From: Skeletonema tropicum | Taxonomy: Eukaryota > Bacillariophyta > Thalassiosirophyceae > Thalassiosirales > Thalassiosiraceae | Direction of reading: 5' to 3' | DNA length: 64,000 nucleotides | Assembly: GCA_037178625.1 (NCBI GenBank) | Contig: CM074148.1 | Location: 186,001-250,000 of the forward strand | Part shown: piece by piece, positions 2,424 to 62,443 of the stretch | How the letters are laid out: each line of letters starts with the position of its first letter | Position numbering within the stretch: the first letter of the stretch is position 1 | Position numbers and translations under genes: made by a program | The notes under the pieces: model-generated | What the model was told of the DNA's origin: nothing | The model's database searches: none | What the model saw: the letters and a program-made list of their open reading frames with translations, nothing else

Positions 2424-2451
2424 TATTTTATCGATTGGGATAGTTGCTCTT

Positions 2452-7935: not shown

Positions 7936-8140
7936 TGCAATCACCTACCTCCACGTATCAGCCAAGAAGGGCTGATCATGACAAGAGCCAAGATCGATGA
8001 GCTCACAATCGATAAAATACGTATTACCCTAGTATAAGTAAAAGTTATCGATAGTGTGTTAAATAGATTGCTGGATCTTGGTGGGCGCAAAGGTTGGGGT
8101 GATCTCCACCATTATCTCCAGGAGAAGCCATTCTGCAACA
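7848..8140 (+). repeat. 3' LTR
   Basis: Matches the 5' LTR along its full 293 bp. It carries codons 1800-1827 and the stop of gag-pol, and is followed by the target-site copy gtaat (8141-8145). Confidence 0.95.
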
Positions 8141-18905: not shown

Positions 18906-20195
18906 GTTAGGATCTATCTCTATCACTTCTCCTCTCATTATTTTTTAGATCATGAGCATGAGACAGAGAGAGCATGAACCAAGACAGCAGAGGAGGGGCA
19001 GCCGCTTGGCTACTGATGATCTCACAAACACTGGTGGCGTTGGTGCTCCTGCTCCTGTCAATGGCACACCTTACAGCTACAGCCGCACCAATGACAATCC
19101 AGAACACATTCAAGAAAATGAAGACATCGAGATGCAGCCGCTGAAAGGACGAGGACTTATTACTGAAAAAGAAAAAAGCACAGCAAAAAACGAAGACAGT
19201 GACCCCAAGTTTTTCAGAATTCTTATTGTAGCCTACATTTCAAGCTGGGTTGGTTTTTGTCTGCTAGTCCATCACAACAAGGAGGCAAAGGATTTGAGCA
19301 GTGTTCCTTCAATTATCATCACGGTCGAAATTGTAAAACTAGCGTTTGCATCGGTATTGTTCTGCAAGTCTAGCGGTGGTGCTGGCGAGTTGATGCACTT
19401 TTTCCGAGACCATGAACAGTTTTTGAAAGAAATGAAGCGCTACTTCCCGATTGCGGCTCTCTACGCTATATGCAATAATCTCATGATGTTCAATCTGAAA
19501 AATAACAATCCGATTGTATACCAGATCTTAAAAGGCTCCAGACTCTTAATGGTGGCAGTTGTATGGCAGATTTTCTTTCAGACGCAAATTCCCAAGAAAA
19601 GAAAGGTTGCATTAGTCCTCATCACAATTGGTCTCATGATCAAATGCTTCGAACAAAATGGTGATGCTGGAGTCAAGGATGTTCATATGGAGAAGAGTTG
19701 GTGGGAAGCTCTCTTTGGTTTTTCCCTGGTATTACTGGAAATGGCCTGCGGTGTCATGGCTTCAGTGTACAATGAAAAAATGTTAAAGCAAGTGAAATGT
19801 GATCAATACCTGCAGAATATCTGCTTGTACCTCAATTCGATTGTGATCAACGCGGCTATCTTTCTTGTACCAACCGATACCAACGGAGGGGGGCAGGAGG
19901 CATCCTTGCTTTCCAAAACAAGTGTCATGATTGTGATTGCGCTTGCTGCGGGTGGACTCATGACAGCAATGATGATACGTGCAGCAGGATCAGTGACGAA
20001 ATGTGTGGTCGCGGCTTCCATAACCATTGTCACATGCGTGATTGATGTAGCATTCTTCAATTACAAACTTGTGACTCCAGAGGCTGTAGCAGTGACCTTG
20101 GTAACTTTGGGGAGTGCTATTTATAGTTTACACTAAAATTACTTAGTAGACTCAATTATTACTAATCCCTCTGTAGTTGTTTCGTTGGTCTTAAC
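18906..20195 (+). repeat. 1290-bp inverted segmental duplication, arm A
   Basis: Matches arm B (27749-29038) in inverted orientation over exactly 1290 bp. The one difference I found is C at about 19204 (Pro codon) against the His codon in arm B. The homology includes the whole transporter gene, 46 bp upstream and 59 bp downstream. Confidence 0.95.
18952..20136 (+). CDS. Nucleotide-sugar transporter (SLC35A-like), copy A
   Basis: 394 residues, single exon. An N-terminal cytosolic-type stretch of about 80 polar residues is followed by multiple hydrophobic helices (FRILIVAYISSWVGFCLLV from about residue 87). The family-diagnostic part runs through IAALYAICNNLMMFNLKNN, then YQILKGSRLLMVAV near 189, and ends with LVTLGSAIYSLH. 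This pattern is that of the SLC35A / UDP-galactose-CMP-sialic-acid transporter family, Golgi antiporters that exchange nucleotide sugar for nucleoside monophosphate. The exact substrate cannot be read from sequence. Two in-frame ATGs are close together (18952 and 18958). 'attattttttag' just before the start resembles a 3' splice site, so an upstream exon is possible. An inverted near-identical copy lies at 27808-28992. Confidence 0.9.
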   Translation: MSMRQREHEPRQQRRGSRLATDDLTNTGGVGAPAPVNGTPYSYSRTNDNPEHIQENEDIEMQPLKGRGLITEKEKSTAKNEDSDPKFFRILIVAYISSWVGFCLLVHHNKEAKDLSSVPSIIITVEIVKLAFASVLFCKSSGGAGELMHFFRDHEQFLKEMKRYFPIAALYAICNNLMMFNLKNNNPIVYQILKGSRLLMVAVVWQIFFQTQIPKKRKVALVLITIGLMIKCFEQNGDAGVKDVHMEKSWWEALFGFSLVLLEMACGVMASVYNEKMLKQVKCDQYLQNICLYLNSIVINAAIFLVPTDTNGGGQEASLLSKTSVMIVIALAAGGLMTAMMIRAAGSVTKCVVAASITIVTCVIDVAFFNYKLVTPEAVAVTLVTLGSAIYSLH

Positions 20196-20288
20196 GTGCA
20201 TTGTGCCAGACATGACATCATTTTTTATGATGTCATCAGAGAGAGTACATACAACCACGGAACCGCGGCAACGTTTTTGTGCTGGGGC

Positions 20289-26702: not shown

Positions 26703-27748
26703 TGTGACAAGTGCACGTTCTCACGAAGCTCACTGGTTTTCTGGCATAACTTAATGCTTAGATCTCTATTTACCGATTGGGGATGTAGACCCGCTCTTCT
26801 CTATCCATTCGTTTCACGTTCATCTTAACAGATCTTTCGCATACGATTTCCTCTCTGTATTGCACGGGTGACGGCTATTCAGCGGTCGGCCACTTTTCAG
26901 TGACGTACGGGATCAGCACGTAGCGTAAACGCTCTCTGATCCCATAAACCTGTACCAGGAATCTTGTCTTCTGCTACTAGATCCGCATCGAAAGAACAAC
27001 AAATATTCGGACTTTGAAGGCTTCGAATCATTACCCCCCTCAGACGAAGGAAGCAATGACCGAAATAACCCAGGGCCGGGTGGGTGTGAAAATAAAAAGG
27101 CTGTGGTGGAAAGCGCGTGAAGATTAAGAGTGTTGATCGGTCCCTCCACTAACGCATCCAACAGTCTATCTCCCATTCAAGCGACGAGCGTTGTCATTGT
27201 TACCTCACGTGTTGATAAGACAAAGAGTGAGCTTGCAACTTTGTTAATCTCAAATTGCCCGCCAAGATTTGTTCAACTTGCTTGGTGACTCGTTTCTTCT
27301 TGCACTTGCATGTCCGCTGTTTGTCCTCCCAATGCTGCTCGGACAACTCTCCATCCAATACCACTCGTCGCTTGATTGTGTCGTTGTATCGACTGCGCAG
27401 TCGTCACAAAGTATATATACAGACCATATTCACAGTGGGTTTAACTCGTAACATGTATCAGGCCCAAAGGAGGAAAGGGTCTCGTCTACATCTATGAAAT
27501 AAGTACTTATTTGATGGGCTGGGGCGAGAAGTATGTTTAAGACGGATACACTCATTACGTTTTGTAGAGACGGAAGTATGCCAACATACAGACAGGAAAG
27601 GTAAGGGTACATCGATTTGGAGGTTTGCGAGGTGATGCACGTGAGCGTGCGTGAGTTCGCACACAAGACTCACCTTTACAATGCATGAATCATCCTTGGT
27701 ATCTATTCCAATGTCACAGACTTCCAATTCAAAGTTGTGCAGGTGCAT
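26703..27748. other. Insertion-containing flank, no gene
   Basis: About 26703-27445 interrupts homology with 39105-39125 (the copy there runs straight through). About 27445-27545 again matches 38999-39105 inverted (words catacttctcgcccca, gacgagaccctttcctcc). No gene recognised. Confidence 0.55.
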
Positions 27749-29038
27749 GTTAAGACCAACGAAACAACTACAGAGGGATTAGTAATAATTGAGTCTACTA
27801 AGTAATTTTAGTGTAAACTATAAATAGCACTCCCCAAAGTTACCAAGGTCACTGCTACAGCCTCTGGAGTCACAAGTTTGTAATTGAAGAATGCTACATC
27901 AATCACGCATGTGACAATGGTTATGGAAGCCGCGACCACACATTTCGTCACTGATCCTGCTGCGCGTATCATCATTGCTGTCATGAGTCCACCCGCAGCA
28001 AGCGCAATCACAATCATGACACTTGTTTTGGAAAGCAAGGATGCCTCCTGCCCCCCTCCGTTGGTATCGGTTGGTACAAGAAAGATAGCCGCGTTGATCA
28101 CAATCGAATTGAGGTACAAGCAGATATTCTGCAGGTATTGATCACATTTCACTTGCTTTAACATTTTTTCATTGTACACTGAAGCCATGACACCGCAGGC
28201 CATTTCCAGTAATACCAGGGAAAAACCAAAGAGAGCTTCCCACCAACTCTTCTCCATATGAACATCCTTGACTCCAGCATCACCATTTTGTTCGAAGCAT
28301 TTGATCATGAGACCAATTGTGATGAGGACTAATGCAACCTTTCTTTTCTTGGGAATTTGCGTCTGAAAGAAAATCTGCCATACAACTGCCACCATTAAGA
28401 GTCTGGAGCCTTTTAAGATCTGGTATACAATCGGATTGTTATTTTTCAGATTGAACATCATGAGATTATTGCATATAGCGTAGAGAGCCGCAATCGGGAA
28501 GTAGCGCTTCATTTCTTTCAAAAACTGTTCATGGTCTCGGAAAAAGTGCATCAACTCGCCAGCACCACCGCTAGACTTGCAGAACAATACCGATGCAAAC
28601 GCTAGTTTTACAATTTCGACCGTGATGATAATTGAAGGAACACTGCTCAAATCCTTTGCCTCCTTGTTGTGATGGACTAGCAGACAAAAACCAACCCAGC
28701 TTGAAATGTAGGCTACAATAAGAATTCTGAAAAACTTGTGGTCACTGTCTTCGTTTTTTGCTGTGCTTTTTTCTTTTTCAGTAATAAGTCCTCGTCCTTT
28801 CAGCGGCTGCATCTCGATGTCTTCATTTTCTTGAATGTGTTCTGGATTGTCATTGGTGCGGCTGTAGCTGTAAGGTGTGCCATTGACAGGAGCAGGAGCA
28901 CCAACGCCACCAGTGTTTGTGAGATCATCAGTAGCCAAGCGGCTGCCCCTCCTCTGCTGTCTTGGTTCATGCTCTCTCTGTCTCATGCTCATGATCTAAA
29001 AAATAATGAGAGGAGAAGTGATAGAGATAGATCCTAAC
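27749..29038 (-). repeat. 1290-bp inverted segmental duplication, arm B
   Basis: Inverted partner of 18906-20195; same length, near-identical. Beyond 29038 about 300 bp (29039-29339) is absent from arm A. Then about 60 bp (29340-29400, word ccggcatgtcgtaaaag) again matches the DNA just upstream of arm A (18845-18903). Confidence 0.95.
27808..28992 (-). CDS. Nucleotide-sugar transporter (SLC35A-like), copy B
   Basis: 394 residues, identical to copy A except for one substitution (SDHKF here, SDPKF in copy A, at residue 85). The helices and motifs are as in copy A. Both copies are open, so both could be expressed. The 5' context differs: this copy has a 300-bp stretch upstream that copy A lacks, so the promoters may differ. 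Confidence 0.9.
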   Translation of the reverse strand: MSMRQREHEPRQQRRGSRLATDDLTNTGGVGAPAPVNGTPYSYSRTNDNPEHIQENEDIEMQPLKGRGLITEKEKSTAKNEDSDHKFFRILIVAYISSWVGFCLLVHHNKEAKDLSSVPSIIITVEIVKLAFASVLFCKSSGGAGELMHFFRDHEQFLKEMKRYFPIAALYAICNNLMMFNLKNNNPIVYQILKGSRLLMVAVVWQIFFQTQIPKKRKVALVLITIGLMIKCFEQNGDAGVKDVHMEKSWWEALFGFSLVLLEMACGVMASVYNEKMLKQVKCDQYLQNICLYLNSIVINAAIFLVPTDTNGGGQEASLLSKTSVMIVIALAAGGLMTAMMIRAAGSVTKCVVAASITIVTCVIDVAFFNYKLVTPEAVAVTLVTLGSAIYSLH

Positions 29039-38707: not shown

Positions 38708-39296
38708 TGGCCATTACAAATATGAAAGATCTCTCTCCTCTCTCTCTCTTGCTCTTGTGGTACTTCTTTCATATCAAGACATTAAGAAAAGTGTTCTTCC
38801 TCTTTGCATCTCATTTCTTGAGTTGAGTCTCTACAGATCAGTCATTCTTCATTCTACTAGAATCGATCGAAGAGGGTGAGAACATGTTTCAATCCTCCAG
38901 GATGACAAATTGGCTGGGACTCCTTTCTATTTCTGGATCTGGAGAGCCTGCAGAAGGCGAGAATTCACAAACTTTCGCTTTACGGCAAACCATTTGATAG
39001 TAATGAGTGCATTCGTCTCAAACATACTTCTCGCCCCACCATCAAATAAGTATTATTTCATAGATAGACGAGACCCTTTCCTCCTTTGCATTTGGGCCTG
39101 ATACATGTTAGTTACTGATCTTTCTTCTCGGAAAAGAGAAAACGAAGGTTCCCGTTTCTTGTACTTTTGGCTTCTCAAAATCACATCATCAACCCGAACA
39201 CGAGAGATGAAGATGGAGGATGTAAGTAGCTTGATCAAGGGTAAATAATAAATGCTTGGACAATAAGATTATCAATTACCTTGCTATTGTTTCATC

Positions 39297-40253
39297 ATGG
39301 CGGCCGAAGGCGGTAATATTGTACGGTTCACTTACACCGGCGCGGATGGCGAAATTATTCCTGACGATGCCACTCATGTCTATGTGGACGTCAAAATCAT
39401 TCCGGCATATGCATTTTATAGGCATGCCAGCATCGTTGAGGTCATTTGTGATGATAAAGTCGAAACGATTGAAAGATTAGCATTCCAAAAGTGCCCTCGC
39501 TTGAGGCGAGTAATTATGCGGGGCGTCAAAATTGCTGAGGAGTGTGCATTCCATAATTGTGAAGCTCTAACGGATGTGGAATGTGACGAGTTGGAAATAG
39601 TTGGATATATGACATTCTGTATCTGCAGATCTTTAAGGAGTATCAACCTGCAATCTGCCAGGATCGTTAAGGTGAATGCATTCTGCGATTGTAGAGCCCT
39701 GAAGGACGCGAAATTTAGTAAAAAGCTGGAAAGATTTGATGAGGGGGCATTCTGGGGCTGCCGCTCTCTGGAACGAATTGCTATCCCAATGAAAGATGGC
39801 TTGATTACCGCTGAAAATATTTTCATCTATTGCACTAATTTGAAGCATGTCGATCTGGTCGAGAGAGCAGAATTACATGAAATTATCACTGCGTTGCACA
39901 TGGAGGAATGGAGAAATGATATGTGTCAAGAAATTACTTCAATCAATCAGATTCTTCCCAATGCACCTGCTGGAGGATTTAATGATGTGGGAGAAAAGGC
40001 CCAAGTAGTACAAAGGTGGATCAGATCCGTTCTTGACAAAATGATTCGCTATCGTGCAGAGCATCAGCGAATATTGGATGAGGCTGCAACTACACTTGAG
40101 TTAGGTTTACCTCGAGATCTTGTAATGGTTAATGTCCTCTCTTTCCTTGAATTGCCACCAAACACGTTTGGAGTGGAGGATCGTGAAGATGCGCAGAATG
40201 AAGACGATATGCAGTGTCAAGTAAATCCTTTTGTACATCTATCACTTGCCTGA
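39297..40253 (+). CDS. BspA-like leucine-rich repeat (LRR_5) protein
   Basis: 318 residues from ATG (MAAEGGNIVRFTYTG); no signal peptide, probably cytosolic. About residues 35-190 are six or more ~23-residue LRR_5/BspA units with the AFxxC..L pattern (AFQKCPRLRRVIMRGVKI, AFHNCEALTDVECDELEI, AFCDCRALKDAKFSKKL). A conserved helical C-terminal region follows (HMEEWRNDMCQEITSINQIL, then LDKMIRYRAEHQRILDEA and LPRDLVMVNVLSFLELPP). BspA-type LRRs mediate protein binding and are expanded in diatoms. This is the only copy of the local family with an unbroken frame from start to tail. A downstream acidic segment (40301-40398, MGDKEGDNDVDG...) is coding-like and may be joined by splicing near 40221; relatives keep that segment. 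Confidence 0.8.
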   Translation: MAAEGGNIVRFTYTGADGEIIPDDATHVYVDVKIIPAYAFYRHASIVEVICDDKVETIERLAFQKCPRLRRVIMRGVKIAEECAFHNCEALTDVECDELEIVGYMTFCICRSLRSINLQSARIVKVNAFCDCRALKDAKFSKKLERFDEGAFWGCRSLERIAIPMKDGLITAENIFIYCTNLKHVDLVERAELHEIITALHMEEWRNDMCQEITSINQILPNAPAGGFNDVGEKAQVVQRWIRSVLDKMIRYRAEHQRILDEAATTLELGLPRDLVMVNVLSFLELPPNTFGVEDREDAQNEDDMQCQVNPFVHLSLA

Positions 40254-40806
40254 CGGAAAGAGAGGAGAAAATATGAAGGAGCGAGAGTTGGAAGATGACA
40301 ATGGGCGACAAAGAAGGTGATAATGACGTAGATGGAAAAGGAGGTGAGGAAGACGAAGGCAATGATGAGATTGAAGGGGAGGTAGGAGAGGTGACATAAG
40401 TTATAATTAGGATCAAATAATCATGCTGCTATCTTACTGCTTGCTGCACGACGATACAGCGCAGATAGAGGCTTTGGAAGTGCACCTGCGACTTATATCA
40501 CCTACCCCTCTCTCTCTAGAGAGAGATAGAGAGACAGAAAGTGGAGACAGAGGTGGCGAGGTAGTAACCTCGAATCCTCCCAACAAATTGATGAGACAGA
40601 CATCTTTTCTAGCTGTCGCATCTCTCGCTTCGCGCACAAAATAAATCAAAGGCGACGCGACGGGCGGGACGCGACTGGGATCGATGGGATAAAAATGGGA
40701 AATGGGAAATGGGATCCATCCAGCGCAGTAGAGAGTATTGAAGTGCTGTACGCTGTATTGGTTAATCAGCTTCTATCATTATTTTGTTGTATTATACTGT
40801 TCCATA

Positions 40807-41696
40807 ATGGCAGCCGAGGGCGGAAATAATATCACTTGGTTCACTTATACCGGCGAGGACGGCGAAATTATTCCTCACGACGCCACTCATGTCTTTGTGG
40901 ACGCCAAACTCACTCCGACGCGGGCATTCTATAATCGTCCTAACATCGTTGAAGTCATTTGTCATGATAGAGTCGAAAGGATAGAGACACAAGCATTCCA
41001 GTGGTGTCTTTCCTTGAGGCGAGTAATCATGCGGGGCGTCAAAATTGTTCAGCAGAGGGCATTCTATTGGTGTAGAGCCCTTGAGGAGGTTGAATGTGAC
41101 GAGCTGGAAATCATTGGAGATAGGGCATTCCATTATTGCATCTCTCTGAGGAGTATATCAATCTACCATCTGCCGAGATCGTTAAGTCGAATGCATTCAA
41201 ATCTTGTAAAGCTCTGGCGCACGTGAAATTCGGTAGCAATCTGCAACGAATTGAGGGGCACGCATTCTGCTGCTCCTCTTTGGAACGAATTACGATCCCA
41301 TTGAAAGATGGCATGATTACCAATAATGATATATTCCTAGCGTGTGATAATTTGAAGCAAGTTGATCTGGCCGAGAGAGTAGAAATACGTGAAATTATCA
41401 CTGGGTTGCACATGGAGGATTGGAGAAATGATTTGAGTGCAGAAATTGATTCAATCACACAGATTCTCCCCATTGCAGATACCAATGATGTGGGAGAAAC
41501 GGCCCAAGCAATACGAGGATGGATTACATCTGTTCTTGGAAAAATGATTCTCTACAAAGCACAGCATCAACGCATATTGGATGAGGCTGCAACAACACTC
41601 CTCCAGGTTGCTCTACCTCGCGACATTGTGATGAATACTGTCCTCTCTTTTCTCGACTTGCCACCACATACGTTTGGAGAGGAGGATCGTGAATAA
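40807..41696 (+). pseudogene. BspA-like LRR protein, 2-nt insertion
   Basis: Starts MAAEGGNNITWFTYTGED and runs in frame through several LRR units to CISLRSI. There a 2-nt 'at' duplication (tatat, 41153-41157) shifts the frame. Reading resumes as NLPSAEIVKSNAFKSCKAL, then HMEDWRNDLSAEIDSI and LPRDIVMNTVLSFLDLPP to a stop at 41696. Otherwise full length relative to 39297. About 550 bp downstream of that gene on the same strand, so a tandem duplicate. Confidence 0.8.
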
Positions 41697-43117
41697 AGAC
41701 GATGAAGACGCAGAAAACGATACATAGTGTCATTGAATGAACAAGAATCGGAAGAGGACGATGCTATATAACACAACGAAGCAAGGATATATGTAGATAA
41801 ATGAAGAGAACGAACAGGGAAAAAGAGGAAGAGCAGCCACGATATATGACGAATGTAATTCCACGACCTCGGATGATATCTTGACAATGATGTGATGGAT
41901 GATGTCAATGTAAGACAGTGATGTTACGAAATAAACAGCAGTGTTGCTTTAGATAAGTCTAGATATTATAGATACTTCCTCAATTTGGTATCATAACTTT
42001 TTCGTTTCAGACTTGATATATTCATATACAAGCTTGAGTGTAGAAATCTGTTCATTTTTGTCCCACATGAATCCCCACGTAGCGTCGACACCATTGTACT
42101 GCATATTACACTCTGCATATATAGCATCGTGTCAAATGACGCAATGCTGCATTGTAGCAATGGAAACGGAAGTCGTCATGATCATCTTTTCCACTCTCTT
42201 TTTTTTTTTTGCAAGATTTCAAAACGGTCTGTTTTCGTTCGTCTCAACCGCCGCTTCTTATGCGCACAGCAACAAAAAACAAACAAGAGCGAGGCGAATC
42301 CACTGTTTGTCAAGAGGTGAGGGAGGGAAACGACCATGGGCGGCAGCTCTCCTGCCACAATAATATATAGTGAAAGGGTGGGATGATAGTCATTGGTGTG
42401 CATTGAAAGTGGTCACCACCTAATAGTTATTGAGAGAGGGGTTCAATTTATGACGTAGAGCCATGATGAATTTCAAATAATAGTACATAGTTGGTGGTGG
42501 TGGTGCGGACAAAGTGCCAATGAAGTGGAATACATTCCACCACAATATATATATATATGAAGCCGTATGCACTCCACTCGACTTCTCCAAGTGAGGGGGG
42601 GGCGTGACAAGTGAGATGGTTGGACACACAGCAATCTCGCAGTATATTATTTATTTATTGCGGTGCGACCAACTGCATTGAATTATTTATTGACGGCCTT
42701 TTTCAGCGACTTGGGGGGGAGAGTTGAGAAACGGGGAAGGCATTGACTCGCTCTATATACAGTGATGGGGCTATTGGTATATATTGCGGCATGATTATTA
42801 GTTGCTACACTTAAGGAATGGCGACATGTGGATGAGAAGACCCCCTCCAAACAAGAGAAGGCCGTTGGCAAGAAACATTGAGATTGACCCACCCCCTCTG
42901 CTGTGCGGCACCATTGTCCTCTATAACTTGCCCACGGTTACATGGATACAATGAAGGACCAGCATAAAATGACATTTCTCTCTCTATACAACTGCACGTC
43001 TCTACTCAAATCACATCTCATTTGCAACAATCTTCTCACACTCTCTTCTGTTCTTCTTTTTTTTTCAATTCATTCCAGGCATTTCTATTTTTTTTGTAGA
43101 AATAGGAAAAAAAAACA
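41697..43117. other. Intergenic and promoter DNA
   Basis: No gene recognised. It contains AT stretches (atatatatatatat near 42546) and pyrimidine-rich DNA leading up to the OSCP start. Confidence 0.45.
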
Positions 43118-49996: not shown

Positions 49997-50958
49997 TCAC
50001 ATGCCGACTTCCATTTCCTCTCTGTTAACAACGTCTTCTTCACTATCATCTTCGTGATCCTCCACTCCAAACATGTGTGGTGGCAATTCGAGAAAAGGAA
50101 GGGCATTATTCATCACAAGATCTCGAGGTAAAATTAGCTCAAGAGTAGCTGCAGCAACATCCAATACACGTTGATGTTCTGCTGTGTAGTGAATCATTTT
50201 GTCAAGAACTGATCTAATCCACCATCGTATTGTCTGGGCCTTTTCTCCGGGAGTATCATCTTCGATATCATAATCATACTCACCTCCAGAATCTGCATTG
50301 GGAAGGATTTGATGGATTGCATTAATTTCTTCATTCATATCATTTTTCCATTCCTCCAAATGTAAAGCAGCGATAGTTTCACGTAATTCTCCCCCCTCGA
50401 CCAGATCTACGTGCTTCAAATTTTCACATCCCTCGAAGATATTATCGTCAGTAATCATGCCATCTTTCAATGGAATGGTGATTCGTTCCAGAGAGGAGCA
50501 GTCAGAAATGAATGCCGCCCTATCAAATCTTCCAGCTTGCTACCAAATTTCACATCCGTCAGGGTTTCACAATATGAAAATGTCCACATCTTAACGATCC
50601 TAGCAGATGGAAGGTTGATGCTCCTCAAAGATTCGCAGGCATGAAATGCCCTCTGTTCAATTATTTCCAGCTTGCCGCATTCCACATCCGTCAGGGCAAT
50701 ACAATTATTGAATGCCCACCCCTCAACAATTTTGACGCCCCGCATGATTACTCGCCTCAAGCGAGGGCAGGCAAGGAAAGCCATTTCTTCAATCGTTTCG
50801 ACTCTATCGTGACAAATGACCTCAACGATGTTAGGATGATATTCGAATGCCCGCCTACGAATGATTTTGGCGTCTACAAAGACATGAGTGGCATCGTCGG
50901 GAATATCTTCCTCACCGGTGTAAGTGAACCGTACAATATCACCGCCCTCGGCCGCCAT
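49997..50958 (-). pseudogene. BspA-like LRR protein, 1-nt deletion
   Basis: Starts MAAEGGDIVRFTYTGEED and carries the full LRR series (AFEYHPNIVEVICHDRV, AFLACPRLRRVIMRGV, AFHACESLRSINLPS). Near 50530 one nucleotide is missing (gaaga where relatives have gaaaga). Reading resumes in the next frame as FIS-CSSLERITIPL, then MKDGMITDDNIF, HLEEWKNDMNEEI, LPRDLVMNNALPFLELPP and the end EEMEVGM. Otherwise complete; oriented opposite to the copies at 39-41 kb. Confidence 0.8.
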
Positions 50959-51424
50959 TATGGGACAATAGCTTTCGCAAGATAAGTCGTCTATCCAATA
51001 CGACAGAGACTCGATGAGCTACTTTTCAAATATCGCAGTACAATACCAGTCGCCCGAGCCGTCATGGTTGTTCGTTCAAAAAAAAAATCAAGGGCCGGCG
51101 TTACGTTATCGGTGAAGTTGTTGAATATTGTACCTCAACCAAGAAATCCGTTCTCCCAAAGATTCAAAATCATGGCCCCACCACAGATAAGATAGATGAA
51201 GCTAGCTGACCTTTGACTTGTACCCCCCTTGATAGCCTATTAAATAATAGCCAATTCTTACATCCGAAGGGGTACACGGTTAAAAGTCGCGTCGGACCAC
51301 GGACAGACCATTTGAAAATCTTTTGCGAAGAGTCAAAAAAAAGAGAGGTGGATCATGACTTCCGTTTTCAATGCTACCAACCTCTCTGCGTCATTTGACC
51401 GATATATTATATAATTAGAAGTAA

Positions 51425-51434: not shown

Positions 51435-51562
51435 TGCACAGCAGTAGTGTGATGCTGCCTTAGATATTGAACAACACACGCCAGACCAAATAATATATCA
51501 TACGAGATATTGCTCTAAAACAATCACCACGCAGTATAGTCATTGCCACTAAGAGAAAATTT

Positions 51563-54500
51563 ATGGACGCCTCTGCCTTTTTTTCCAGTGGTCCTTCTGC
51601 TCCACCGCAGCAGCCGTCTCGATACAATAATAATACGATCAACAGCAGCAGTGGTGGCGGCAACATAATGAGGAACAGAGAGCTCCAGAAAAGCGAATCA
51701 GAAGAGTTTGAAACTCTGGATATCAATGCTCCTCCTCTCACCACCACTACTGCCCATGTGAATAGAAGTACTGCTCTAGGTGCTAGTGCTGCACCTCTAT
51801 CTATAACTAGAAGTAATAATGGAGACGCTGCCAATTATTTTGGCGGGCCCAATGATGTGAATCATGGACCTCTGTCAGGGCATCCTACAACAGCAGTAGG
51901 TGGTGTGGGAAGAAGAAGTGGTGGCGTGGCAGATGGATTTGTGGCCAGTTCGGGTCCGGAATGTTTTTCCATGCCAAATAATACTACTACTGGTGCTGGT
52001 GGTGGAAATTATGACAATAGCAGCGGTGGTGCAACTACATACACCAGCGGGAATAAGTATAACCATCCAGAAGTGCAACAGCAGCAGCAGCAAGAACCAA
52101 TGGAATACGAAGGGGTAGCACTCCAAACAGCCCTCAATACATTCACCGCCGTTGGTCGATTGGGTGGTGGTATTGCTACCAATGTGTTTGGGGGTGCGGT
52201 CAAAATGAAACAGGGGATTCATACCTCGTTGGGTACTGGTACTGCGAAGGGTAGAAGTGCAAATACAGCAGCAGGAAACAACACAGCAGCAGCAGCAGCC
52301 GGTGCAAGAAACAACACATCCTCCACTACAGTAGTCAACAATACCAAACAGGCTCCATCATCCACCAAACGTGTTGGAAATGTCATTCAAAACATTGGCA
52401 ACTTTGCAAGTGGACTAGTCAAGGAAATAGGAGTAGGTGGAGAGGAAGATGATGAAATTGCAAGGGCAATGGTGCAGTGGGCTGAGGAACGGAAGAGACA
52501 GCAGAATCAGCAGCAAGTTCAGGGAAATAGTGGTGGTCAACAACAGTTACAAGAGGGGTATTATTTGCAAGAGGGATATTTGCAGCAAGAGAATCTTCAG
52601 CAACAACAACAACAATTTTCTCAACAGCAGGGATATACTCACACAATCACCAACAACAACAGCAACAACAGCAGCATGGCACAGCAAGTATTCAGTGCGC
52701 CATCTCCATCCAACACTCCTCAATTTGGTCCAACCCCCACTACTACTGCGACGACGAATGTGGGACCTCCGGCAATGTCATTGGGAACATCGGCAGCGGA
52801 CGTCTTTGGTGGAAATAATTCATCATCGTCTTCTTCTTTTTCTGCTGCTGGTGGCACTGCTGCTGCACCAATGAGTAGAATGGCATCGGATGCTTCGGCG
52901 GCAGACGTATTTGGTGGTACTGGTACTAATCCACCTCCATCGGAAAAGGTTTCAACAGCGGCAGACGTATTTGGAACGACGAATCCACCTCCATCAGAAA
53001 CGGTTTCTACGGCGGCAGACGTATTTGGAGCAACGAATCCACCTACATCGGAAAACGTTTCCACAGCGGAAGAAGTTTTTGGAGCAACGCCATCTGAAAA
53101 TGATTCTGCGGCGGCAGGCGTATTTGGAGCAACGAATACTGTTGCTTCGGAAAATGTTTCTACTGCGGCAGACGTATTTGGAGCAACGAATACAACTGCT
53201 TCAGAAAAAGTTTCTGCGGCAGCAGCAGGCGTATTTGGAGCAACGAATCCACCTCCATCTGAAAAATCCTCTGCTGAAAATGGTTTCGGTGCCAATTCTG
53301 GTCAAGAAAAGAAGATGATGTTTGGTGTTTCTACTACTTCAGTTGGTACTAAAATTGCTTCTGCGGAGGATGTCTTTGGTGCAAGTACGTCTGAAAAAGC
53401 TTCTGCTGCGGATGTCTTTGGTGCAACGAATGTTGTGGCTGCCTCTGCGGCGGATGTTTTCGGTACAACGAATGTGGTTGCTACAGAAAATGCCTCTACG
53501 ACGGATGTTTACGGCACAACGAATGTTGTGGCTGCTACAGAAAATGCCTCTGCAGCGGATGTGTTCGGTGCAACGAATGTGGCTGTAACAGAAAATGCCT
53601 CTGCGGCGGATGTTTTCGGTGCAACGAATCCAGCAGGTACGTCTGAAAATGCTTCTGCGGCGAATGTTTACGGCACCACTTCTGCTTACGGAAATCCTGC
53701 CCAAGAGGTTTTAGGTGGTGTCAATACGGCTGCTACTGAAAAGACTTCCGCAGCAGACGTAGTATTTGGAGCGTCTTCTGCCTCCAATCCTACGTCTGCA
53801 TCAGAGGTCTTTGGTAGTAACGCAGCTGCAGGAAATGTTGTAGTTGATGGAGCTATTACCTATCCTCCTACAACATCTGCAGAAGAGGTATTTGGTGGGG
53901 ATAATAAAGCCACAGAAAATCCAATCGCGGGAGAGAGTAGTATTGTTGAGGTGCCGCCACCACTTCCTGAGGGATGGTTCAAGGGCATTGATGAGGCGAG
54001 TGGCAATGCGTACTACTACAACAATGTTACTGGTGAAAGTTCGTGGGAGGTGCCTCGGGAGGAGGATAAGTTGAAAGAAGTAGTAGCACCTACTGGACAG
54101 GGCTATGTGGCTGTCGAGGGTGCCGCCGTTGATACCCTCAAAAGTACCAAAGAAATCAAAGAAGAACCGCTTCAACAACAACATCCGGTAGTCGTTCATC
54201 GCCAATCATCAAATCAATTAAACTCCCTTGAATGCGCTGAACATGATCCCAACTTTCAATATTCGGATCCATTAGTTGGGTCTGCTGTCGCTCCTACTAC
54301 AACTGCCACAAATGCTAATGGTGGTAGTGGAATTTCCAAGCCTCCCGTCACTGGAAATGTTCTTGCCATGGAGATTGGAAATTATCATCCTCCTACTGCC
54401 ATGGTGACAATGATGGAAAAAGAGCAAGAAATGAATGCTCCTGCTTCTGTTGATGCTGCCACCACTTTCAGTGAAAATGTTGTGGTGAAGCCAAATGAAC

Positions 54501-57500
54501 CGGTGGTGGTGGGAGTGGATTCAGCTACTGTCGATGCGACTACTCCCGAAACGACTGTTGAAGAAACTTTGATCCAGCACGAAACACCATCACTTGCAGC
54601 ATCATCATCCAATGTGCCAACGATTGCACCATCACCTGCTGAGGGTACCGAAAAGCACACCATCTCTTCATTTGCACCACCAGAAAAGCGTCCTGCCATC
54701 GCTACTACCTCCAATACCCACCGTCGATTTCAACTCAATCTACCAAAAAAGGCCAGTCTTCCACTTCCTCCTCCTCGCAGTAAGAAAACGCCCAGTTCTG
54801 TTAGCGGTGGAGGGTCATTGGGGAGTACCTCACGGAAGAAAAAGGTGACTTCTTCCTCGCCATTCCGTAAGCCCCCTCCGATGGAAGTTAGTGCTACACC
54901 TCGATTTCACGTCCCTCCCCCCGCTGGTGGGAGCAGCAGCGTGGGCAGTGGTGGCAGTGGTAGTCACCATCATTACCATTTGCCCAAGGCGGCAACGACA
55001 CCGGGAGCTACGTCGGTGTTGACGACAAGTCCATTGCCTACCCCGAGGGTATTGGATGATGGTAAGGATGATAATGATGTTCCTTCTTCGGCGTCTCCTC
55101 TTCTCCCAGCGACTTCAACACGAGCGGTGGAGGAAGCTGTGGTAGTGAAAACGACAGATAGTGAACCCACGTACACTTCTCCCGAAGTATCATCCGTATC
55201 AAATGATGGGGATAAGTCATTGACGGTAGCAGAGGCATCAGTTGGAGCAGAAAGTAAACCACCGGTGGTGTTCCAACCGCTCGAGCTGGATCAAATCGTT
55301 GAAGCTGTTGCTGCTGCTCCGGGAGAGTTCAAAATGGAATTGCCTAAAAAGGAGGTAAAATATGATGCGGGTGAAGATGTCTTGAACAATGTAGCGTCAA
55401 CCACGGCCCACGAAGTAATGCAGGACGCTGTCCTTAATGTAGCTTCAACTGCAATCAGTACTGAGATTCCCCCTCCCACCTACAGTTTAACAACACGTCC
55501 AATTTATCACGAAGATGAACCCCCTAAAGCTGGATCGTCTCTTTTTACTGAAGGTGGTGCTAGTGATTACCAATCGACTCTTCGTGATGAGGACTTGCCT
55601 CCAATGGCCGATGGCAATGAAGAGGATGGGGAGATATTGAATTCTGTTGAGAGTGTTGTGGCACCAACGCAAGTCGAACCGGAAAATCTCGTTGCAGCTC
55701 TAGATATCCCCAAGAATGATGAAGATGGGGAACTTTCGGGTGGTGAGGCAATGGTTAGTTCTTCAGTCGCCACAGAGTATCCCATGAGTGATTACCAAGA
55801 GCAAGTCACGGATGAAGATTTTGTCGTTGTTGGCACCAACGACGTTGATAACAATGTCATCTCCCCCGATGATGCGGTGCCGGCCTCATCCTCATGGGTC
55901 GAAACTATTGACCCTACTTCTGGACAGCCTTACGATTACAATCAGAAAAGTTGGCAGGCGGCTGCGAATGAAGAAAAAGTGGAATCAACGGTGTTAGAAG
56001 CGTCTCCAGAAGTAGTATCACCGATGACTGCTCAAGTTGTAGCGGAGATTGTGAATTTACCTCCAGCTGATAATGCTAATGAATCACCAGGCAATATGGA
56101 AGATGAAGTTGTTGTTGAACCTGAATTCACTGAGGATGAAGCTCCACAACTGCCAGATGGATGGGTCAAGTGCATTGATGAGGCGAGTGGCAACACATAC
56201 TACTACAACACTGTCACCAATGAAAGCTCGTGGGATTTGCCATCGGATGATACCTCCAATGCAGTTGCGTCGACAGAGCAGGATCATGTGGCTGGTGAAA
56301 GTGCTGCTGTCGTTACCAATAGTAATGCCGAAGAGAGCAATGATTCGTCCAAACCAGATGTAACTGATGACGTGCATCCCAAGGTTGAAGTTGAACATGA
56401 AGAGTTGGCAACAGTCAATGCCGAGCAGGTTGCGCAAGTGAACGCTGATCACAATGACTCTGCAGCGGAGAGCCAAGTAGAGGAAGAGAGTAATGTGGAA
56501 CCGGAGAAGTCAGAACTCGGCCCCCTACCAGCAGGTTGGAAAGAATTCAATGATCCGAGTGGTAGAGTCTTCTATTACAATGCGAGCACTGAAGAGAGCA
56601 GTTGGGAGCGCCCCAAGATTGTCGTTCCTGAGGCTGTAGAAGACTCAACTCCTGCTATGGCTAATGACGCTGAAGACGAACAACCCATAGATTCAGCCGA
56701 AGTGGAACCCGTTGATGAAGATGTGAAAACTGAAGAAAATGCACATGTTCAAACCAATTCATTGATTACGGAAGAGTCACTGGCCACACTTGAAGATGAC
56801 GAATGCAATCTTTCATTTGAATCTCTACCTCCTGGTTGGATTGAAACGAAAGACTCAGCTTCCGGCAAGATCTACTACTACAATGAAATTACGGGAGAAT
56901 CCTCTTGGGAAAGGCCTACGGTGGCGCCAGAGACAGTTGACGACCCAGCTGTGAATATTGCTGATGAAGTAGAGTCTGAAGCTATTGTTGAGTCGGATAT
57001 TGCCCCGGAGACTGTTGAACAGTCGGCGCCATCAGTGGCTAGTATCAACGATGAGGCCAGTATTGTTGTGGTGGATCAAGAGCCTGTAGAAGAGCCTCGC
57101 CTGTCACATGAAGACTATTCTGACTTACCTGCCGGTTGGATTGAAGCAGTACATGAAGGGAACGCTTACTTCTATAATGAAGAAACTGGGGAAACGTCCT
57201 GGTCAAGGCCAGAAATGGAAATTGTTGATGGTCAAGAGGTTGATTCTCCAGTAGATTTGGCACTTGCTCCGGAAGAGTCACCAGAAGTGACATCTACGTC
57301 GCTAGTAGTAGGAGATGAAATTCCAGAGGGAAATGAAGCGAACTTGAACCTTCCAGAATCGCACGTCAATGATACTGTTGATGAACCTACTACGTCTGAG
57401 GAGATTGTTACTTCAGAGGAACTCCCACCAGGTTGGGTTTCATCGATCGACGAGGCGAGTGGAAGCACTTATTACTACAATGAAGTGACGGGGGAGAGCA

Positions 57501-60500
57501 AGTGGGAAAGGCCATTAGCTGAAGTCGTCGATGGCAGATCTGTGGATAACGTATCAGTTGAAGAATCTGCAACTTTAGAAACCGATGTCGCCGATACAAA
57601 TGGAATTGAGAATGATGTTGATTCGAATAATCAGCAGCCTCAAGCTGACGAAGCTGAAGAAGAGAGTGAACCTTTCGAAGAGACTGCTCTGCCATCAATT
57701 GATCAAACTCCATTGGACGACGTGCTTCCTCCAGGTTGGTTTTCGTCTGTCGATGAGTCGAGCGGGAAAACATTTTATTACAACGAAGACGGAGAAAGTT
57801 CATGGGAGAAGCCAAAGGTTGAAGTTGGTGATGCTGCATCTGAAGACGAAGGACCAGTTGGACAGGTGGATGCGAATGAAACGGAGGCTACAGAGCTTGA
57901 TGGTGACGTTTGTGAGAAAGATGAAACGTTCCTTAAGGAGCCTGAAGCTGTTGAGGAATCAGGTACTGTCGAAGACACTGCTTCGCCGGAGGACGAGCTT
58001 CCGGAAGGCTGGTTGTCATCAATCGACGAAACATCTGGTAAAACCTTTTATTACAACAAGGAAACAGGGGAGAGCATGTGGGAAAAGCCCTCTAACCAGA
58101 AAGCTCCGTATGCTTCGCCTGAAGATGAAGTGCCAGCTGGTGACGCTGATGAGTGCAAAACGGAAGTTTCTGAATCAGAAGAGTTGGAACGTGATGCAAA
58201 TATGGAAGAATTGCAAAGCGCTGACGCAGTCACCGATGGACCGGTAGCTGCTGTTGATGATGAGGAACCAATCATAGTCGAAGAGACTGCTTCGCCCGAT
58301 GAGGGGCTCCCAGCAGGCTGGTCGTCATCAATTGACGAGACAAGTTGCAAGACATTCTATTACAATGAGGAAACGGGAGAGAGTACTTGGGAGAAGCCCT
58401 CGATCAAAGAAGGGCACGATGATGACGTATCTAATGACATTGCAGCTGATAAGGTTGCAGTAGCTGAAACAGAAGAGGTGGTCGATGATGCAAATATTGA
58501 TCAGTTGGAAGGCGCTGAAGTAATCACCGATAAGGCAGCTTTTGTTGAGGGTGGGGAACCTGTAGAAGACGAGAAACCAATCACTGTTGAAGACGCTTCG
58601 CCCGATGAGGGGCTCCCAGCAGGCTGGTCGTCATCAATTGACGAGACAAGTGGCAAGACATTCTATTACAATGAGGAAACGGGAGAGAGTACTTGGGAGA
58701 AGCCCTCGATCAAAGAAGGCCACGATGATGATGAACCAAATGATGTTGCAACTGATGACATTGCAGCTGCCGAACCAGAGCCGGTGGTCGATGATGCAAA
58801 TATTGATCAGTTGGAAGGCGCTGAAGTAATCACCGATGAGGCAGCTTCTGTTGAGGGTGGGGAACCTGTAGAAGACGAGAAACCAATCACTGTTGAAGAC
58901 GCTTCGCCAGAGGACGAGCTTCCCGAAGGCTGGTTGTCATCAATTGACGAGACTACTGGCAAGACCTTCTATTACAATGAGGAAACTGGGGAAAGTACTT
59001 GGGAGAAGCCATCGATTAAAAAAGGTCAAAATGACGACGTACCAGATGACATCGCAGCTGATAAGGTTACAATTGCTGAAATAGAAGAGGTGGTCGATGA
59101 TGCAAATCTTGATCAGTTGGAAGTCGATGAAGCTGTCTGTGAACAAGAAGCCATTGTTGAAGATGAGGAACCAGCTACTGTCGAAGAGACTGCTTCGCCT
59201 AGGGAAGAGGAGCTGCCCGAAGGCTGGCTGTCGTCAGTCGACGAGACTAGTGGCAAGACCTTCTATTACAACGAGGAAACGGGGGAAAGTATGTGGGAGA
59301 AGCCTTCAAATAAAAAAGTTCCTGATGCTTCACCTGAAGATGATATACCAGCGGATGACACTGCAGCTGCCGAACCAGAACAGGCGGTCGATGATGTTGA
59401 TGAGGAGCCTTCACCGGCCGAAGAGAATCCGTCATCAGAAGAATCAGACGACCTTCCACCAGGATGGTCTTCATCGGTCGATGAGGCCAGTGGCAACATC
59501 TTTTATTACAATGACGAAGGAATAACTTCATGGGATAAGCCGTCTGTTGAAAGATCACCTGACCAGGCTGAAACTGAAAATGAAGCACCAGTTGACGGAG
59601 TGATGGAGCACCAAGAGGAAGAAGCGGCTGGAACAGATCGATCTTTAGAACCTCAGGGGGGAGAGACTGACATTAATCTTACGACAGAGGAAACGTCGAA
59701 GACAGTTGGGCTTCCCCATGGTTGGAGAGAACTTGAGGATGAGACCACTGGAAATGTTTACTATTGGAATGAAGAAACAAATGAAACCAGTTGGGATTAT
59801 CCTCCTTCGACTGAAGATGCTGATGCTGCAGACGTGCAAACAGGAAATAAAGAAGCGAGTGAACAAGTAGGGGAGTTTGAGGACTTTAGTGAACAAGTCG
59901 TGTCAGATGAGAATGTCGGAGATGGAGCCGAGCCCCAACCAAATGATCAGCAAAGTGAACTGCTGGAAGGTTGGGTAGCCACAGTCGACGAAGCTAGTGG
60001 CAATACCTACTATTACAATGAGAAGACGAACGAAACAAGTTGGGATAAGCCCGTTGCTGAAACCAAAGCGGAACTTCCATCTATTGCAACACCGAAGCCT
60101 GTCCAGCGATGTAGGCCGGCGCACGCAATTGCAACGTTTGGATTTGGTGGTAGACTCTGCGTCATGATGCCGCAAGTTGCGGCTTCTCTTTCTGGCACAA
60201 TGTCGCAGCCTTCCTCGTCAAGTCACCCTACAATGCGACGAGGTCCTGTTGTTATTCATCGGGTGAAGGACCTCATACCAAGCGGGGACAAATTCTCCAT
60301 CCCTTCTTCAGCAGATTCTGACACAGTAGGTCCACTAGTGAAAGCAAAAGAAAAGGATGTCATGTCCTTCTTAAAGCAAAAGAGTGCGTCTCCGGAAAAT
60401 TTGATATGGAACCTGATCAACATTGCCGCTCAAAATAAAGGAAGGCTAAAGAATGGCGACGACGTTGTTGATGGAGGACCTGAGGAAGCCATTGTCGACT

Positions 60501-62443
60501 TACTGCTTTCAGTGGGGACAAATGGAAAGTCCTCTCAACCCCAAGCTTCTTCAATTCAATCCACCAATTCTGATCTCGGTGACGTTCAAGACTTGCTACT
60601 TCGTGGAGATCGGGATCGTGCTGTTGTTGAAGCACTGAAAGAGAAGAATTATGCCCTCGCCCTAATTATTGCAACCATGTGCGACGACGACACTTACCAG
60701 ATGGTAGCGCGACAATTTGCAGAAGATGTACTTTCTGCCGGTTCTCCTCTATACACTACCACTTTGCTCCTCACTGACAATCTTCACTTGCCGCCAAAAG
60801 ACCAACTTAGAGACCCAAGACATGGATTGTCATTTTGGTGTGAAGATCCGTACGAAGATCTTTACACGAACTGGACGCAGCAGTTAGCAACTATTTTGAG
60901 CAACAAGAGAGCGAATTACACAAAAATAATCATGACGCTAGGGGATAGGCTCATGCAATTAGGGCATTGTCATGCTGCTCATGTTTGCTATCTAGCCACA
61001 TCTTTGTCGCTTAACAATCCGTCGAAGCCGTCGACTCGAATGGTGCTATTGGGATGTGACCACACTGTCCCCTTGAACAGAGTGCTAATGACGCCGGAGG
61101 CAATTGAAGCGTTTGAACGCTCTGAAGCGTTCGAGTGGGCTAGACGATTGGGAAACAAAAGGACGACTTTTTCTTCTCTACAACCATTCAAGTTGAGGTA
61201 TGCAGAGCTCCTAGCAGACGTTGGGCATGAAGTTTTGGCACGAGAATATTTGCTCAGCATTCGAATCTGCACTGGAATCGGAATCATCAAAAGAGCGAAG
61301 GGAAACCCGGCTTCATTGTATGATAGCAGCTTTATTCAGTCGCTTAGAGAACTTGATGATCGAATCTGCGGTTCGATTGGAGCTGAAAGATCGTCCTGGA
61401 ATGCAAATGAAGAGTCATTCAAAGGTTCCATGTTCTCTCTGGGTAGGCTAAGCGCACTTGTTCGTGGCAAAGAGAAACAGGGGGAAGAAGTTGTGACGCC
61501 TAGACCAGAAAGTGAAGCGGATCCGCTCCTTGAGCTCGACACTGTTACGCCGCCAGCAATTCAATCGCAGGAAGAAGAGCTGGTGCCCCCTGTAGCTGCG
61601 AAACCTGCTGAGAAGCCATCTGAGCCTCTGCAGCAGATTGATGCTTTCAATACTTCAATCGGAACCAGCAATGACTCTGATTCAAAAAAGGCATCCACTA
61701 TTGATGACGCCCCCGCGTCAGCGCCTCCGTCATTGGCAATTGGTGAAAGTGCAATCGATCGAGCTGATGATTCAAAGGCAATTGAGGAGAAACTCTCAGA
61801 AAAACTGTTAACTCCAAGCGAAGCTAGCAAGAAGGATGAGAAGAAGAAAGCTCCCGCATCGGAGCCACCAGTGAGTGCTGGACTTTTGGCAAGACTGTTT
61901 GGACGTGACAAGGATTCCAAGGTGAAGGTTGCCGATGTTGGAGAGGAAATGAAGGCATATTACGATGAGGTTAGTACGAATCTTTGTTCCTATCATTTTA
62001 CTTTCTTAGCCTAGAAACGCAGCTCAAATCTTCATGTTTTTTCTTCATTTTTGCAGAAATTGAAGCGTTGGATCTTCCCCGGTGACGATCCAGCGGAGGT
62101 TGCCAAACCATTGCCTCCTCCACCAATTATTAAATCAAGTGACAAAGCGCCGTCGACTCCTGCACCCGCTCCTGCTGCATCTAATGACCCACTTGCTGCC
62201 TTGATGGCTCCTCCGAGTCGAGCGTCGACCGCAAGGAAAGGAATGCCTCCTGTCCGCGGAATGCCCCCAACAACGTCAAAATATGCGGATCCTCTTGCAT
62301 CGATGTCGATGGGAAATATGTCGACTCCTGGTGCGACCATGAAGAAAGAAGCAGCACCAACTCCAAAGTTTGCTGTATTTCAACCAATCCCGACAAAATC
62401 TGATCCTTCTAAAGACGAGAAGGAAAATGTTGCTTCTTCCTAA
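51563..62443 (+). CDS. Sec16-like ER exit site scaffold with 15 WW domains
   Basis: Exon 1 (51563-61969) and exon 2 (62057-62443) are joined across an 87-nt GTTAGT...TTGCAG intron, giving about 3597 residues. Order: a Ser/Asn/Gln-rich low-complexity N-terminus; about 18 repeats of S-A-A-D-V-F-G-A-T-N (about residues 410-780); a first WW domain near 801-830; a long disordered acidic/Pro stretch; fourteen more WW domains between about 1530 and 2830; the Sec16 central conserved/ACE1-type helical domain (about 2929-3235, with DVQDLLLRGDRDRAVVEAL, YALALIIATM, CHAAHVCYLAT); and the Sec16 C-terminal motif MKAYYDE-KLKRWIFP, split by the intron. Sec16 organises COPII assembly at ER exit sites. The ACE1 domain binds Sec13, and the C-terminal motif supports homology beyond low complexity. 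WW domains bind Pro-rich ligands; their presence is not part of the usual Sec16 plan I know. Confidence 0.9.
52790..53905 (+). repeat. AADVFGATN peptide repeats in Sec16
   Basis: About 18 in-frame copies of (S/T)AADVFG(A/T)TN separated by short variable spacers (PPPSEKVS, VVATENAS). Variants include AEEVFG, AAGVFG and TTDVYG. The corresponding DNA words gcggcagacgtatttgg and gcggatgt.ttcgg are similar enough to expand or contract by slippage. Confidence 0.85.
53963..60054 (+). repeat. Array of 15 WW domains in Sec16
   Basis: Each unit has L-P-x-G-W, Y-Y-Y/F-N and T-G-E-S-S-W-E-x-P. Approximate starts: 53963, 56147, 56520, 56823, 57126, 57417, 57723, 58005, 58308, 58605, 58917, 59208, 59451, 59706, 59967. 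Between the first and second is a decayed unit (SSSWVETIDPTSG, YDYN) lacking the second Trp context. Units 9 and 10 (58305 and 58602) are almost identical in DNA, 297 nt apart, so duplicated very recently. In unit 9 the usual SG is SC (DETSCKT). Confidence 0.92.
61970..62056 (+). other. Spliceosomal intron in Sec16, 87 nt
   Basis: Donor GAG|GTTAGT at 61970 and acceptor TTTTTGCAG at 62056, phase 0. Joining restores the conserved YYDE-KLKRW motif. Without splicing the protein would end 14 residues into the intron. Confidence 0.85.

Follow-up and report, generated by a model that had tools for sequence, protein, structure and literature searches.

A Sec16 orthologue with an array of WW domains, and a WW domain in Sec31, in the diatom Skeletonema tropicum

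We have analysed a window of 64,000 nucleotides from Skeletonema tropicum (GenBank assembly GCA_037178625.1, contig CM074148.1, positions 186,001 to 250,000, forward strand; positions below are those of the window unless a contig is named), which holds a gene for Sec16, the scaffold of endoplasmic reticulum (ER) exit sites. Profile matches, the predicted fold and a C-terminal motif confirm that this gene, at 51563-62443, encodes a genuine Sec16 orthologue, as an initial annotation of the DNA had claimed. Here we show that in diatoms the region ahead of the Sec16 core carries a string of PRP40/FBP11-like WW domains, preserved by selection, on strongly acidic linkers, and that Sec31, of the outer layer of coat protein complex II (COPII), has a conserved WW domain as well. 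From these sequences we propose a model, to which we give an even chance, in which a multivalent network of WW-proline contacts would concentrate COPII at diatom ER exit sites, with ligands that we infer below.

Identification of the Sec16 gene

The gene lies on the plus strand in a single uninterrupted stop-to-stop frame of 3506 codons (51494-62014), whose first ATG opens the sequence MDASAFFSSGP, a start common to the Skeletonema marinoi model P0003. A putative 87-bp intron (Table 1) separates this long exon from a short second one. It is placed there from the sequence and from the models of relatives, which read YYDEKLKRW; its removal joins YYDE to KLKRWIFPGDDPAEV, matching P0006, P0013, P0015 and P0016. 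The predicted protein has 3597 amino acids, with the stop codon at 62441-62443, and its Sec16 core is 86% identical to those of S. marinoi and S. dohrnii, 88% to that of S. menzelii and 77% to that of S. potamos.

Pfam profiles match the protein for the WW domain (PF00397, 15 stretches, 526.8 bits), for the Sec16 mid-region (PF12932, 39.1 bits, cut-off 23) and for the central ACE1/TPR_Sec16 domain, the part of Sec16 that binds Sec13 and Sec23 (PF12931, 136.8 bits, cut-off 22). When the whole genome was searched, PF12932 gave a single match, this gene, and PF12931 gave two, this gene and Sec31 on contig C12. WD40 families, whose propeller separates Sec31 from Sec16, are absent from the seven Pfam matches of the protein. 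An AlphaFold2 model of residues 2860-3345 (mean predicted local distance difference test score 75.4, predicted template modelling score 0.72) has a predicted ACE1 fold with a beta segment ahead of the helices, the predicted beta strands of the PF12932 region preceding the solenoid, and is nearest to Sec16: the top Foldseek match is yeast Sec16 in the Sec13/Sec16 crystal 3mzk (E 5.1e-9; template modelling score 0.53 by query, 0.65 by target), with Sec13/31 structures behind it, at best at E 2.0e-4. A structure search by sequence only retrieved 3mzk weakly (E 0.0068), as its sole match up to E 10. The C-terminal pattern YYD..LKRW has no match in P0030, P0033 and P0034. The diatom protein is like yeast Sec16 in its mid-region, in the Sec16-like predicted fold of its central ACE1 domain and in its C-terminal YYD..LKRW region; human SEC16A and plant MAIGO5 are Sec16s too. 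Unlike yeast Sec16, it has 15 WW domains and acidic linkers ahead of the core.

Organization of the WW array

Sixteen WW-like units are visible, 15 of them intact and one decayed, just as first counted, between nucleotides 53963 and 60052 (the initial annotation had put the end at 60054). Unit 1 stands alone at residue 824 and the decayed unit 2 lies at residue 1464; the other fourteen form a dense array within residues 1553-2853, a length of 1301 amino acids that bears out the earlier estimate of about 1300. A loose WW pattern has 15 matches in the protein against a mean of 0.045, and a maximum of 1, in 200 shuffled sequences, which rules out chance matches. The 13 linkers of the dense array measure 49-94 residues each, 8 of them 67-72, and they contain 32.6% D/E and 3.3% K/R, with a net charge of -255 across 872 amino acids. 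A WW unit led by [LI]SFESLP, as unit 5 is here, recurs in 16 of 29 sequences (P0001-P0029). A match of PF17451 (glycosyl hydrolase 101) over unit 5 and the linker upstream of it is taken as spurious.

Distribution among diatoms

Two protein searches yielded 33 Sec16 matches (9 and 24), of which 26 have WW domains and 21 combine them with PF12931, and every one of these 21 that has a name is a diatom. The five WW-bearing matches without PF12931 (P0025-P0029) stop ahead of that domain. Among the seven without WW domains, P0016 and P0020 begin inside the core and P0030, P0032 and P0034 are fungal by name; the others are P0031 and P0033. The WW-bearing proteins belong by name to S. marinoi, S. dohrnii, S. 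potamos, S. menzelii, Thalassiosira exigua, Thalassiosira sp. AJA248-18, Chaetoceros debilis and Dactyliosolen fragilissimus, with one further record whose CCRYP gene names presumably stand for Cyclotella cryptica. In the near-complete models, P0001 and P0003-P0010, the profile counts 9-16 WW units and the pattern 8-15. These homologues confirm that other strains and species share the array, and the diatom setting proposed for it at the outset extends to several genera.

The Chaetoceros protein is annotated in the database as 'Protein transport protein sec16', and therefore the architecture is already in public data. The earlier statement that no Sec16 with a WW array had been described holds insofar as a literature search, made by titles and the starts of abstracts and with subscription papers mostly outside its scope, found no WW-bearing Sec16 or Sec31 among the papers listed. 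The terms 'WW domain' and 'diatom' are both absent from the main text of PMC4419792, and the available part of PMC2951903 tabulates the presence of Sec16 in taxa that include Phaeodactylum and Thalassiosira pseudonana.

Class of the WW domains and candidate ligands

In an alignment of the 15 WW domains, W5, N20, W28 and P31 are invariant (15/15), and at the position that we equate with L30 of YAP an aromatic residue is found in 192 of the 202 Sec16 WW domains scored. WW domains of the PPxY type (group I) need a His at the position that binds the Tyr; it occurs there in 1 of the 202 domains from Sec16 and in 0 of the 106 scored from Sec31. PPxY, which the initial annotation had named among the ligand types, is therefore unlikely and was rejected as the main ligand class. 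The best single-domain match, among 3 alignments listed of 124 matches, is WW1 of PRP40, with its YYYN core (36.5 bits); Itchy (25.0 bits) and NEDD4L (22.9 bits) are lower per domain, yet both chains lead by summed score. The Pfam WW profile of TCERG1 matches the protein as well (100.6 bits). On these comparisons the Sec16 WW domains look PRP40/FBP11-like (poly-Pro type, group II/III) rather than PPxY-type. The likeness to PRP40/FBP11 (PRPF40A) and TCERG1 lies in the type of WW domain; unlike Sec16, these are splicing or transcription proteins, and they are unrelated to it beyond the WW domain. PRP40-type WW domains, according to the available text of PMC11079029, bind PPLP and poly-Pro, motifs that occur in several proteins.

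A candidate ligand is present in Sec16 itself. A basic proline-rich module (Table 1) carries a net charge of +13 within 60 residues, opposite to that of the array, and in 9 of 10 sequences the protein's most basic stretch of 60 residues coincides with it at least in part. In a conservation profile of the N-terminal half, built on 10 sequences of which four are close Skeletonema relatives, the segments FRKPPPMEV...FHVPPP (0.81) and LPKKASLPLPPPRSKK (0.73) stand highest after 15-residue smoothing, against a mean of 0.37. The motif F[RK][KI]PPP is found in 10/10 sequences and LPLPPP in 9/10 of those holding the region, Chaetoceros reading LPLPLP instead. The third peak of the profile, at 0.70, is a PPxY motif. 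Fifteen sequences contain an SDYQ landmark, and in 11 of them PPxY occurs ahead of it; of the remaining four, three start near the landmark.

Further upstream, the short motif [DEN][LVMIF]FG has 14 matches in the protein, 13 of them within a low-complexity region of SAADVFG-type repeats (52799-53896) whose DNA contains tandem repeats at 52928-53673. It has 2-11 matches in P0003-P0010 and 6, of the DLFG type, in the WW-less P0031; in the WW-less Sec16s P0030 and P0032-P0034 there are 0-1. These repeats are a possible second multivalent docking motif.

Elsewhere in the genome, where the WW profile has 77 matches (15 loci were read and 6 frames scanned), two giant frames of 4200 and 5513 codons (G000:C34:45176-57775 and 69121-85659, minus strand), 99% alike over 3208 residues, represent an amplified Sec16 N-terminal half. 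Their longest matches to Sec16, at 54-58% identity, fall within residues 463-1244; they have 6 and 7 WW domains by pattern, an ADVFG region, a single basic proline module and no Sec16 core, begin with an unknown domain, and have a relative at C95:47256. Another locus (L019, G000:C7:822876) encodes a synoviolin/Hrd1-like RING ubiquitin ligase in which a WW domain follows the RING. This is possibly a third early-secretory WW protein of this genome. A 2324-codon frame (L010, G000:C6:3162377) has two WW domains followed by a FYVE domain.

WW domains and proline motifs in other COPII subunits

The Sec31 frame on contig C12 has one WW domain (51.3 bits), between the ACE1 and the C-terminal parts. 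A search found 244 Sec31 homologues, and the counts given here rest on the 120 listed. Exactly one WW domain is present in 108 of them and none in 12, of which 11 end ahead of a conserved YGDGF stretch behind the WW domain; 104 of the 105 that reach YGDGF have it. The exception, P0043 of S. marinoi, keeps only the end of the domain, SSWDPP, and another S. marinoi entry, P0042, is WW-bearing. We read the 12 WW-less homologues as incomplete or faulty models. Legible names of WW-bearing Sec31s are Skeletonema menzelii, S. marinoi, Stephanocyclus/Cyclotella meneghiniana, Attheya, Chaetoceros debilis and Ditylum brightwellii, and partial labels read Thalas..., Odonte... and Psemu1, the last of which we take to be Pseudo-nitzschia.

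The linker ahead of the Sec31 WW domain is Gln-rich (mean 16.7% Q). PPP is absent from the roughly 110 residues ahead of the WW domain in 105 of the 108 (present in 3) and from the 130 residues behind it in 100 of the 108 (present in 8); this genome's Sec31 frame, from an incomplete gene, has none. In the inner coat, Sec24 on contig C21 has seven PPPP runs in an N-terminal frame and another six in a C-terminal one. A Sec24-like protein encoded on C4 contains three, and the Sec23 frame, also from an incomplete gene, has one. At the 3' end of the C21 Sec24 (L041) the Pro-rich C-terminal stretch switches reading frame several times, which suggests indel errors of the assembly or a decayed tail.

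In the available part of PMC7594496, PPP motifs in a Pro-rich disordered region of yeast and human Sec31 bind the gelsolin domain of Sec23, and the disordered regions of yeast Sec16, unlike the diatom WW-array Sec16, are described with PPP motifs too.

A proposed WW-proline network at ER exit sites

In the network that we propose, the Sec16 array would make many weak contacts with short proline-rich motifs. Two ligands seem likeliest. One would be the basic proline-rich module of Sec16, bound by the array within the same chain (in cis, as auto-inhibition) or between chains (in trans, cross-linking Sec16 to Sec16); the other would be the poly-proline tails of the inner-coat Sec24 together with the PPPP loop of Sec23. 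The single WW domain of Sec31 could bind these motifs too and in this way bring Sec31 to Sec16 or the inner coat. WW domains would thus sit on scaffold and outer coat, and proline motifs on scaffold and inner coat. For an array and its ligand on one chain, PRPF40A offers a precedent, as the available text of PMC11079029 describes its WW domains binding a proline motif of its own chain; PRPF40A, where this intramolecular contact is autoinhibitory, has two WW domains against 15 in the present Sec16, for which auto-inhibition would be one possible function.

More tentatively, diatoms may have inverted the recognition code of COPII, by which Sec23 of yeast and animals reads proline motifs on Sec31 and Sec16, with a WW domain in Sec31 replacing the PPP stretch, a WW array in Sec16, and the prolines on the Sec16 module and on Sec24 and Sec23; we regard this as possible, though somewhat doubtful. 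Such a code would resemble the PPP-gelsolin interface between Sec31 and Sec23 and between Sec16 and Sec23 (PMC7594496, as far as available) in that recognition of proline links inner coat, outer coat and scaffold. It would differ in that in diatoms outer coat and scaffold hold the proline-binding domains and Sec31 is almost free of PPP.

Several points weigh against the network. The proline motifs could instead bind Sec23 (through a gelsolin-PPP contact), SH3 or profilin partners, and the basic stretch of Sec16 could bind membrane rather than WW domains. Poly-Pro N-termini of Sec24 occur outside diatoms too, and therefore give no evidence of a matched change. The conservation profile is weakened by its four close relatives, and in windows of 25 residues the FRKPPP, LPLPPP and PPxY segments rank 3, 54 and 107 of 1747, so that by this measure only the FRKPPP peak is exceptional. 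Where Sec16 WW domains carry an aromatic residue, the Sec31 domain has Ala in 95 of 106, and hence the two may differ in ligand. The Sec31 models P0082 (Thalassiosira exigua), which stops ahead of the WW position, and P0043 lack the domain, although both are probably faulty. Finally, the available part of PMC7594496 reports that yeast can grow without the PPP contact as long as the coat is not weakened in another way, and that quite different disordered sequences can stand in for that of Sec31; a change of motif therefore need not mean a new mechanism.

Alternative explanations

The array may, alternatively, recruit partners from outside COPII to ER exit sites, such as an ER ubiquitin ligase, actin/formin proteins or RNA-processing factors. 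The breadth of poly-Pro ligands described for PRP40-type WW domains (PMC11079029, as available) would allow it, the synoviolin/Hrd1-like ligase of this genome also bears a WW domain, and the PPxY motif of Sec16, in 11 of 15 landmark-bearing sequences, could draw other WW proteins. However, the occurrence of WW domains on both Sec16 and Sec31 in diatoms points to a function inside the coat, and we consider outside partners an unlikely, if serious, explanation of the array.

Another reading, which we judge improbable, sees in the array chiefly a repeat expansion that is passive or drifts fast and forms an acidic spacer or brush, with a small role for binding by the WW domains. It draws on the range of 9-16 units among near-complete models, on the 306-bp tandem repeat within the array, on the decay of one unit and on the spread of the N-terminal half as giant repetitive frames without the core. 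The number of units does turn over while the fold is kept, since units 10-12 sit in that tandem repeat, and individual units are not only gained but also lost, as unit 2 is broken here and intact in S. marinoi. Against a passive origin, the units are kept intact by strong purifying selection: over 105 unit pairs the median proportion of synonymous differences (pS) is 0.79, near saturation, and that of nonsynonymous differences (pN) is 0.27, with pN below pS in 104 pairs and the near-identical units 10 and 11 as the exception. Between proteins, WW columns are better conserved than linkers in 7/7 comparisons. Identity is 0.75-0.79 in WW domains versus 0.45-0.53 in linkers for the four closest relatives (P0002-P0005), with 0.79 versus 0.45 for S. 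potamos, and 0.47 versus 0.23 for Chaetoceros debilis. The anchor unit led by [LI]SFESLP and shared by 16 of 29 sequences also speaks against passive expansion.

The initial annotation had suggested a tether, in which the array would hold a Pro-rich Sec31 at Sec16. The PPP-bearing disordered region of yeast and human Sec31 (PMC7594496, as available) would be a suitable target, but the near-absence of PPP from the stretches around the WW domain of the homologues and its absence from this genome's frame speak against Sec31 as the Pro-rich partner, which was rejected, and Sec31 has a WW domain of its own; we therefore hold this tether to be very improbable. That two adjacent genes, one for a WW array and one for Sec16, were read as one by accident is hardly credible and was rejected, since the frame runs from the end of the last WW unit (60052) to the start of the mid-region (60122) with neither a stop nor a frame change, and WW domains and PF12931 share a single predicted protein in 21 of 33 matches, among them P0021 of Dactyliosolen, whose MMETSP label presumably denotes a transcriptome project.

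Significance

WW domains on both the scaffold and Sec31 suggest that diatoms may hold a shared transport coat together differently. The ER of diatoms is continuous with the outermost plastid membrane, and the network, if it exists, bears on how export sites are organized in such a cell. A major algal group would then be a natural experiment in the re-wiring of an essential coat, and its array a countable multivalent system for asking whether Sec16 acts by condensation. As far as the available texts go, Sar1, Sec23, Sec24, Sec13 and Sec31 are present in every sampled eukaryote (Schlacht and Dacks, PMC4419792), and an ancient origin has been suggested for the coat's proline-based contacts (PMC7594496).

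Table 1. Features of the Sec16 gene and its predicted protein
Feature	Position	Strand	Remarks
Exon 1	51563..61969	+	3469 codons from the ATG at 51563; S. marinoi model P0003 starts alike
N-terminal low-complexity region	52799..53896	+	residues 436-801; repeated SAADVFG-type short motifs
WW unit 1	53963..54055	+	stands alone ahead of the main array
Basic proline-rich module (LPKKASLPLPPPRSKK...FRKPPPMEV...FHVPPP)	54704..54958	+	residues 1071-1155; may be a WW ligand or bind membrane
PPTY (PPxY) motif	55472..55483	+	ahead of the SDYQ landmark
WW unit 2, decayed	55883..55963	+	intact at the corresponding place in S. marinoi P0003, residues 1432-1461
WW unit 3	56150..56242	+	start of the dense array
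WW unit 4	56525..56614	+	Pfam/unit listing
WW unit 5	56825..56917	+	conserved leader [LI]SFESLP
WW unit 6	57125..57211	+	Pfam/unit listing
WW unit 7	57422..57514	+	Pfam/unit listing
WW unit 8	57725..57814	+	Pfam/unit listing
WW unit 9	57998..58090	+	Pfam/unit listing
WW unit 10	58307..58399	+	within 306-bp tandem repeat 58284-59132
WW unit 11	58613..58705	+	within 306-bp tandem repeat 58284-59132
WW unit 12	58919..59011	+	within 306-bp tandem repeat 58284-59132
WW unit 13	59213..59305	+	Pfam/unit listing
WW unit 14	59453..59542	+	Pfam/unit listing
WW unit 15	59711..59803	+	Pfam/unit listing
WW unit 16	59960..60052	+	Pfam/unit listing
Sec16 mid-region (PF12932)	60122..60400	+	residues 2877-2969; Pfam
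Sec16 central ACE1/TPR_Sec16 domain (PF12931)	60584..61405	+	residues 3031-3304
Sec16 C-terminal conserved region YYDE-KLKRWIFPGDDPAEVAKPLPPPP...	61958..62443	+	split by the intron; similar YYDKELKRW in fungal P0032
Putative intron	61970..62056	+	87 bp, GT...AG, phase 0
Exon 2	62057..62443	+	C-terminal 128 codons and stop

Other features of the window

Several diverged copies of a gene family, with 74-77% DNA identity, lie on both strands at about 39270-41700 and at 50050-51000. The translation of 50467-51018 gives an impression of BspA-type leucine-rich repeats, and the part 50000-50539 has no Pfam match. A probable long terminal repeat retrotransposon occupies 2131-8140, with an RVT_2 frame of 1849 codons on the plus strand (2386-7935); this frame lies between two direct repeats of 293 bp that are 100% identical and therefore indicate a recent insertion. 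An inverted duplication, 99.8% identical across 1295 bp, is found at 18906-20200 and 27744-29038, and each copy contains a 395-codon frame for a nucleotide-sugar transporter, the two in opposite orientations.

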